Shown piece after piece: positions 32,791-46,385 of a DNA stretch of 64,000 bases. Positions within the stretch are counted from its first letter, which is position 1; every line of letters begins with the position of its first letter. The DNA lies in assembly GCA_002085155.1 (NCBI GenBank), contig NASX01000007.1, forward strand, positions 1-64,000, written 5' to 3'. The DNA is from Sorangiineae bacterium NIC37A_2. GTDB taxonomy: Bacteria; Myxococcota_A; Polyangia; Polyangiales; Polyangiaceae. The notes below the pieces were generated by a model. The model saw only the letters and a list, made by a program, of their open reading frames with translations. It had not been told where the DNA came from and searched no databases. The translations under genes were made by a program, and so were the position numbers.

Positions 32791-32874
32791 GGGTGTTTTC
32801 CTCCGCCTTCTCCTTAATTCAGCGACTGAGTGGCCCGTTGGAGCAGATGTCGTCCCAATCAGGAGAAATGCCCT

Positions 32875-34554
32875 ATGAGTCTATTTTTGTCCCATCCAAC
32901 GGTGAAATTGCGCGCCCAACGGTTCATTCCACTTCGTGGAAAGAACTTCGATGTGCGCATCAATGGCGAGCTCGCACGTCTCGCTAACATTTCCGAGAGC
33001 GGTCTCGGTTGTTACGTCGCCCAGCCCAACGTCGACGATGTGCAAACAGCAAGTGTCGATCTTCTCGTCGAGGGTGAGCCCCTCAGCGTGGGTTCTGCCC
33101 GCCTCGCTCGCGTGGAAGCGCCGACCCCTGGCCACCCGTTCGAAACGCTGCTCGGTTTTGCCTTTGACCGGGAGCGCCCTGACCTGATCGGGCATCTGCT
33201 CGAATTCCTCGACCTCCCCGGTCGCTCCGAACAGGAAACCGACGCAGAAATGGACGAGGAAGAGTCTTGTCCGAGCTCGCGCACCTTGGATCAGTTCTAC
33301 GAGACCCCGAGCGACGACGTGTTCGCCAAGTGTAACCAATTCCAGACCTGGGTGCAGGCGATGCACCGCCGCGGTTACTACCAGCGCTTCTATCGCGTGA
33401 CCTTGGACGGACCGATCGACAGCCGGGTCCACGTGCGCGGACCGAGCCGCGGCACCAAGAAGTCTCTCATTTGCTTCGACTCGAACAGCTACCTCGGGCT
33501 CCATCTTCACCCGAAGGTCCTCGAATCCGTCCAGGCGGCGACCCGAGAGTTCGGTTACGGAACGCCGAGCGCTCAGCTGCTCTGCGGAACGAATCGCCCT
33601 CTCCGTGAGCTCGAGGAGACGCTCGCCGAGTTCCACGAGCGCGAAGCGGTGATGGTGTTCCCGTCCGGGTTTGCGGCGAATGCCGGCACCATCCGCGCCC
33701 TCGTGCGCGGCAACGACGCGCTGTTTCGCGATCAGCACGCCCACGCCAGCATCCAGGAGGCCTGCCGAGCGGCGGGCGCGAAGCGTTCGAAGGTCTTTGC
33801 CCACAACGACGTGGCCTACCTCGAGCGCATGCTTGCCCACGCGGACAAGCTCGAGTGCGACGCGAAGCTGGTGGTTACCGACGGCGTCTTCAGTATGCAC
33901 GGGGAGCTCGCGCCCCTGCCGGAGATGCTCGCCGTTTGCCGCAAGTACAAGTCACGCCTGATGGTCGACGACGCCCACGGCGTCGGAGTGATCGGCCGCG
34001 AGGGCCGGGGGGTCGAAGAACACTTTGGCCTGACCGGGGAGGTCGACGTGCTCATGGGCACGCTCAGTAAAGCGATCGGCGCGGTGGGCGGATATGTCGC
34101 CGGCAGCCACGAGCTGATCGACTACCTGCGTTTCTATGCGCCGAGCGGGTTCTTCACCACCTCACTCCCCGCGCCGATCTGCGCTGGGGCCAAGACGGCC
34201 CTCGAACTGATCCGAGCGGAGCCGGAACATCGGGCGCGCCTCTGGCACAATATTCGGCGTTTCGTGCCGCAGCTGAAAGCAGCGGGACTCCACGTCTCCG
34301 AAGCTGTCTCGCCGATCGTCACCGTCTTCGTCGGCAAGCAGGAGACGCTCTGGAAGGTGAGTCATGAGCTCTTTGATTCTGGCATCAAATGCGGAAATGT
34401 CGCTTATCCGGCTGTTCCGCGCAACGGCGCTATCCTTCGCCTCACCATCAACGCCCGGCACACGGACGAAGACATCGATTTCGCCGCCGAAGTTCTGGCG
34501 CGGATCGGCGCCAAGTACGGCATCAATCACTTCGACCGCGCGCAGGTCGCGTAA
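32875..34554 (+). CDS. PilZ domain fused to alpha-oxoamine synthase
   Basis: ATG 32875 follows AGGAGAAATGCCCT and gives 559 residues. Residues 10-110 resemble PilZ: NISESGLG matches the (D/N)xSxxG motif, but the preceding arginine motif is RAQR rather than RxxxR, so c-di-GMP binding is uncertain. From about 150 the rest is a PLP-dependent alpha-oxoamine synthase: FDSNSYLGLHLHP, FPSGFAANAGTI, VDDAHGVG (H368) and GTLSKAIGAVGGY, with PLP Lys K399. This family includes serine palmitoyltransferase, BioF, KBL and ALAS; the LCB-like start (FAKCNQF) suggests SPT, but substrate is not decided by sequence alone. An operator-like dyad lies upstream. Confidence 0.9.
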   Translation: MSLFLSHPTVKLRAQRFIPLRGKNFDVRINGELARLANISESGLGCYVAQPNVDDVQTASVDLLVEGEPLSVGSARLARVEAPTPGHPFETLLGFAFDRERPDLIGHLLEFLDLPGRSEQETDAEMDEEESCPSSRTLDQFYETPSDDVFAKCNQFQTWVQAMHRRGYYQRFYRVTLDGPIDSRVHVRGPSRGTKKSLICFDSNSYLGLHLHPKVLESVQAATREFGYGTPSAQLLCGTNRPLRELEETLAEFHEREAVMVFPSGFAANAGTIRALVRGNDALFRDQHAHASIQEACRAAGAKRSKVFAHNDVAYLERMLAHADKLECDAKLVVTDGVFSMHGELAPLPEMLAVCRKYKSRLMVDDAHGVGVIGREGRGVEEHFGLTGEVDVLMGTLSKAIGAVGGYVAGSHELIDYLRFYAPSGFFTTSLPAPICAGAKTALELIRAEPEHRARLWHNIRRFVPQLKAAGLHVSEAVSPIVTVFVGKQETLWKVSHELFDSGIKCGNVAYPAVPRNGAILRLTINARHTDEDIDFAAEVLARIGAKYGINHFDRAQVA

Positions 34555-45776: not shown

Positions 45777-46385
45777 GTGCTCAAGGCTACCCCAGAATCT
45801 CCCCGGATGTTCGAGAGCGATTTCATCGATCTCTTTTCCCGCACCCACTGGTCTGTGGTGCCCATCATCTGGATCCCCGTGTCCCTCTTGATGCTCGCCT
45901 ACAGCGCCCTGCGTACCGGGACGGGCCTCCTTTTGACCATCGGCCTCGCGCTCGTCGGCTTTTTGGTGTGGACGCTCGTTGAGTACTGGCTGCACCGCCT
46001 GTTCTTCCACTGGCAGCCGCCCGGGAAGTTCGGTGAGCGGATGCACTTCTTGGTCCACGGGGTGCATCACCAGTGGCCCCGGGACAAGTACCGGCTCGTG
46101 ATGCCGCCGGCCGTCAGCCTGACCCTGTATTTCGTGTTCCTCGGGCTCTTCTACCCGATGTTCGGGGAGAAGACTTGGGCGTTCCACGCTGGATTTGTGC
46201 TCGGCTACGTCTTCTACGACGTGACGCACTACTGGCTGCACCACTACAGCCCGAAGTCGAAGTACGGCCAGCGCCTCAAGCGCAACCACATGATCCATCA
46301 CTTTGAGGATCCCGACTCCCGCTACTGTGTTTCGAACATGGTCTGGGACCGCGTGTTCGGGACTCTCGGCAAGCGCAGCGTCTAA
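45777..46385 (+). CDS. Fatty-acid 2-hydroxylase/sterol-desaturase-family protein
   Basis: GTG 45777 is 8 bases behind GAGAGGAG; ATG 45807 is an alternative. The 202-residue protein has four membrane segments and the histidine clusters of the family: EYWLHRLFFH, HFLVHGVHHQWPRDKYR, then HYWLHHY and a terminal HMIHHF. The VHHQWPRDKYRLVMPP block is diagnostic of FA2H/Scs7-like enzymes that 2-hydroxylate acyl chains of sphingolipids or ceramides using a diiron centre. Linkage to the PilZ-AOS gene 11 kb upstream is suggestive, not proven. Confidence 0.85.
   Translation: MLKATPESPRMFESDFIDLFSRTHWSVVPIIWIPVSLLMLAYSALRTGTGLLLTIGLALVGFLVWTLVEYWLHRLFFHWQPPGKFGERMHFLVHGVHHQWPRDKYRLVMPPAVSLTLYFVFLGLFYPMFGEKTWAFHAGFVLGYVFYDVTHYWLHHYSPKSKYGQRLKRNHMIHHFEDPDSRYCVSNMVWDRVFGTLGKRSV

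Follow-up and report, generated by a model that had tools for sequence, protein, structure and literature searches.

A PilZ-type domain joined to an alpha-oxoamine synthase of a separate subfamily in Sorangiineae bacterium NIC37A_2 and a few relatives

PilZ domains are best known for the control of motility and polysaccharide synthesis. The canonical c-di-GMP site of these domains combines RxxxR with (D/N)xSxxG, and PilZ domains without c-di-GMP binding exist (PMC10333796). Fusions described from Myxococcus are CsdK1/CsdK2 (PilZ-DnaK), PixB (PilZ-PilZ-GNAT) and Pkn1 (PilZ-kinase) (PMC8316039, PMC10313047). Among alpha-oxoamine synthases (AOS), PigH uses serine and an ACP-bound ketothioester as the substrates of its condensation (PMC6667630). 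Our search of open-access papers found no description of a PilZ domain joined to an AOS or a serine palmitoyltransferase (SPT), nor any paper on a characterised PilZ-regulated enzyme of the AOS class, in keeping with the original prediction, which knew of none.

The window, a stretch of 64,000 nucleotides from contig NASX01000007.1 of Sorangiineae bacterium NIC37A_2, contains such a fusion as a single intact reading frame of 559 aa, with AGGAG 9 nt before the ATG at 32875. The coordinates of the gene given in the original prediction, as well as NISESGLG (residues 38-45), RAQR (residues 13-16) and K399 within GTLSKA, were all correct when checked against the sequence. Its main claim, a PilZ domain joined to a complete AOS, is borne out by the Pfam match of an ortholog, the predicted fold and the catalytic residues. 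The same fusion is found as one ORF in five genomes, and thus cannot be put down to an error of assembly or reading; it is real and common to a few relatives. The features of the locus are as follows.

32861-32865 (+): AGGAG, probably the ribosome-binding site of the fusion gene
32875-34554 (+): PilZ-AOS fusion gene, 559 aa; one ORF kept in five genomes
32911-33216 (+): predicted PilZ domain, residues about 13-114 (Pfam via ortholog, alignment, fold model)
32911-32922 (+): R-A-Q-R in place of RxxxR, residues 13-16; R13 and R16 invariant in five members
32986-33003 (+): NISESG, (D/N)xSxxG motif, residues 38-43; S40 and G43 invariant
33217-33258 (+): linker predicted to be disordered, residues 115-128 (pLDDT under 50 in the full-length model)
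33280-33456 (+): N-terminal AOS extension, residues 136-194; PigH-type proteins match here too
33457-34524 (+): AOS domain, residues 195-550 (profiles, structure matches)
33574-33576 (+): Q234; a Gln shared by the seven clade members, against Arg in 38 of 39 other AOS aligned
34069-34071 (+): K399, PLP lysine, in GTLSKA (alignment)

The window protein alone matches Pfam PF07238 (PilZ) weakly (13.9 bits, E = 0.068; cut-off 22.5), but assignment of its N-terminal domain becomes firm through relatives, the aligned N-domain of one of which, L004 (G045), passes this cut-off (25.5 bits, E = 1.7e-5). The corresponding domain of L048 (G083), a locus that ends at a contig edge, scored 12.5 bits and that of L005 (G032) gave no match in the Pfam search, while a sequence search of the window protein against the PDB returned no PilZ match. 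As the original prediction had proposed, the structure of the N-terminal part was predicted, here for residues 1-137 (AlphaFold, with a five-row alignment of PilZ-AOS members), and solved PilZ entries ranked first in comparisons with the model, in agreement with the six-stranded barrel fold of PilZ. It has seven strands and a C-terminal helix, with the strand order of PilZ (pLDDT 72). The best Foldseek matches were mostly PilZ proteins (Alg44, PlzA, MrkH, VCA0042) with probability 1.00, none with an E-value below 0.001, and VIA-align ranked PilZ-type entries first, with Z from 10.6 to 6.8, ahead of any clearly unrelated fold (highest Z 6.2). Judged by sequence and fold model, residues about 13-114 are a genuine PilZ domain. 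The full-length model, in which residues 115-128 come out as a disordered linker, has a pLDDT of 88.

The remainder of the protein matches Pfam Aminotran_1_2 (E = 3.2e-48) and TIGR00858 (E = 1.1e-106, 356.6 bits); several sister models also match, none reaching its cut-off. Residues expected of a type I PLP-fold AOS (H290-A291-S292, D365, H368, K399 and R522) are all present, with K399, H290, D365 and H368 invariant and R522 nearly so in a 46-row alignment, and the predicted fold of this part matches SPT, Kbl, BioF and ALAS structures. BioF (8-amino-7-oxononanoate synthase) was rejected as an identity, the TIGR00858 score lying below the cut-off of 426, as was Kbl (glycine C-acetyltransferase; TIGR01822, 290 bits against a cut-off of 493). 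In a tree for which the reference rows of solved SPT, BioF and Thermus AOS were partial, being only stretches from printed alignments, the five fusions and two further orthologs (L047, L081) form one clade (support 100/100). When PigH-type proteins taken from plasmids, with their gene contexts read, were added, this seven-member clade was sister to PigH (99/96), the window AOS falling outside the PigH clade rather than within it. Alignment and tree thus place the protein as an AOS with the full catalytic set, in a subfamily of its own whose sister group is the PigH type. A second AOS of the window's genome (L002; G000:C47) belongs to the SPT clade and has an N-terminal extension of ~120 aa. 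In L051 (G367), a different AOS lies behind AMP-ligase-like and carrier-like segments, a separate multidomain architecture recognised by reading the translation by eye.

The original prediction would have lost its force had the fusion been widespread and already characterised; it occurs in five of the 318 genomes of the class, and no paper describing it was found. The genome search was confined to Myxococcota, and beyond this phylum plasmids were covered. Besides the window gene, the members are L004 (G045), L005 (G032), L048 (G083; cut by the contig end) and L082 (G559). The two further orthologs, L047 (G116) and L081 (G513), are AOS without PilZ in the same operon as found in other members, which indicates that the PilZ domain is not needed for AOS chemistry. 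A scan of genome contigs for the window protein found AOS relatives only, mostly from Bacillota; in these relatives the match starts past the PilZ region, and in most of them the ORF is too short to hold such a domain or nearly so. The trees would allow PilZ to be ancestral in the clade with two later losses, but branching within the clade is not firm.

The arginine part of the PilZ site is non-standard, as the original prediction had stated from the window protein, and this extends to the whole group. In the alignment the five members read LRAQRF, DRAERY, TRAERF, SRDVRY and SRDERF, so that none of the five has the first Arg of RxxxR (Leu, Asp, Thr, Ser and Ser at this position) and an R-x-x-R-[FY] pattern, formed by an Arg one place later and the last Arg, is invariant. 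The second motif (NISESG, NISRTG, EVSRSG, NLSSRG and ELSHTG) agrees with (D/N)xSxxG in the window protein, and by motif reading the D/N position is Glu in two other members. Canonical c-di-GMP binding is uncertain because the first Arg is missing in all five. The same genome has 10 PilZ and 10 GGDEF matches, which makes it likely that c-di-GMP is present, and RxxxR with (D/N)xSxxG is retained in the majority of its other PilZ domains that were read.

Four of the relatives (G032, G116, G513 and G559; loci L046, L075, L081 and L082, respectively) share a gene order: behind the AOS come genes for a UbiA-family prenyltransferase and a lipid kinase of DAGK/YegS type. An AIRS-type protein is encoded directly behind the UbiA/DAGK genes in G032, G116 and G559, and in G513 an AIRS-like stretch was seen only in a shifted frame. 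The G032 copies match Pfam UbiA (PF01040, E = 3.5e-25), DAGK (PF00781, E = 3e-17) and AIRS (PF00586, E = 1.5e-21). Relatives of this UbiA protein occur in 4 of the 318 class genomes, exactly these four and adjoining the AOS in each; the chance of all four falling among the seven AOS holders is ~8e-8, a figure that treats genomes as independent of kinship. This cluster of AOS, UbiA and DAGK genes, joined by AIRS in three or all four of the genomes, may encode an undescribed lipid or meroterpenoid pathway. Directly upstream of the fusion in G032 lies a gene for a DUF3419 protein (PF11899, E = 5.8e-59; L046:9920-11023, -). Beside the G559 operon (L082:2014-6502) are genes for an AMP-binding ligase, a protein without Pfam match and an O-methyltransferase, the ligase and methyltransferase lying upstream of the operon; pig clusters also have a methyltransferase upstream of PigH.

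The window gene stands alone, without the lipid operon around it, and a search of its genome for relatives of the operon's UbiA or DAGK proteins found none. Its neighbours encode a metallophosphatase, a CAAX-type protease, an MBOAT protein, a vitamin-uptake transporter and an S55-type peptidase; no pig-type genes were seen around it. A fatty acid hydroxylase family protein (PF04116, E = 6.7e-21) is encoded ~11 kb downstream (45834-46385, +).

The original prediction had raised the possibility that the enzyme is an SPT, with c-di-GMP controlling sphingolipid entry. SPT is among the nearest solved families (E = 9e-72) and relatives have a member of the lipid-kinase family PF00781 as neighbour, but the protein scores below every NCBIfam equivalog cut-off (for SPT models NF047600, NF047599 and NF047603, 321, 311 and 240 against 640, 500 and 670), its AOS belongs to the fully supported separate clade, outside that of solved SPT, and the genome already encodes an SPT-clade enzyme, L002. 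A sphingolipid operon was sought near the gene in the window and none was found. SPT identity was therefore not borne out, and we consider it unlikely. For the PilZ domain itself two proposals lie close together. It could be a ligand-free docking or scaffold module for a carrier protein, partner enzyme or membrane, replacing the fused carrier domains of PigH, which we regard as quite possible, or, somewhat more tentatively, a switch in which c-di-GMP bound at R13, R16 and NISESG would rearrange the domains and turn the AOS on or off. Docking is favoured by the degenerate c-di-GMP motif, the use of other non-canonical PilZ domains as protein scaffolds (PMC10333796) and the ACP domains carried by PigH, in the sister clade (PMC6667630), but the genes adjoining the window gene encode no obvious partner. 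The invariant R-x-x-R-[FY] and SxxG of all five members, which pure docking would not require, suggest instead a retained binding surface; the many GGDEF and PilZ domains in the genome and the existence of c-di-GMP-binding enzymes with PilZ domains, e.g. BcsA (PMC10333796), also argue for a switch. Against it stand the varied residues at the first Arg position and the Glu at the D/N position in two members, the retention of the full motif by the majority of PilZ domains elsewhere in the genome, and the finding that R9A within the binding motif of CdbS abolishes binding (PMC10313047).

Taken as a whole, the best reading, which we favour by a modest degree, is a specialised-metabolite or lipid AOS of its own subfamily with a PilZ regulatory or docking module. 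The AOS would form an aminoketone from an amino acid and an acyl group carried on CoA or ACP; in the relatives this aminoketone may be prenylated and phosphorylated to a lipid or meroterpenoid-like product. PilZ would modulate or dock the condensation, as the committed step, via its degenerate c-di-GMP site or a protein partner. Co-occurrence of UbiA next to the AOS, together with both folds, the separate clade and the conserved catalytic residues, was counted in favour of this reading, as were the c-di-GMP machinery of the genome and the PilZ-effector fusions of Myxococcus; the two orthologs without PilZ, the lone window gene, in a genome that showed no relative of the UbiA or DAGK protein, and the existence of PilZ domains that do not bind c-di-GMP were counted against it. 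A bolder proposal, that PilZ is an allosteric sensor (of c-di-GMP or another ligand, through the altered R-x-x-R) switching the committed step of a hitherto undescribed pathway of Polyangia (AOS-UbiA-DAGK-AIRS) to prenylated amino-lipids or meroterpenoids, seems rather unlikely.

With PilZ attached to a PLP condensing enzyme, a second messenger or a partner would control a committed step of biosynthesis. Lipidomics could reveal the undescribed pathway suggested by the operon of the relatives, and the altered arginine motif is well suited to testing cleanly how much drift PilZ ligand binding tolerates.

Among known systems, SPT of Sphingobacterium multivorum (PDB 3A2B/8GUH) resembles the window protein in fold, catalytic residues and sequence (about 34% identity) but belongs to another clade; the window protein has Q234 in place of Arg and reaches no SPT cut-off. 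PigH, the HBM synthase of prodigiosin and tambjamine clusters, shares the AOS domain (about 36-39% identity) and the N-terminal extension before the fold, and forms the sister clade, but has ACP domains and sits in pig clusters, whereas the window protein has PilZ and no pig genes. Like CsdK1/CsdK2, PixB and Pkn1, the fusion carries PilZ on an unusual effector domain in myxobacteria, although PilZ is paired with a PLP enzyme in none of them. BcsA is likewise a synthase with a covalently attached PilZ domain, but has RxxxR (PMC10333796) and makes cellulose, whereas the window protein is a PLP condensing enzyme without the first Arg. PilZ-AOS is a new architecture of known parts.
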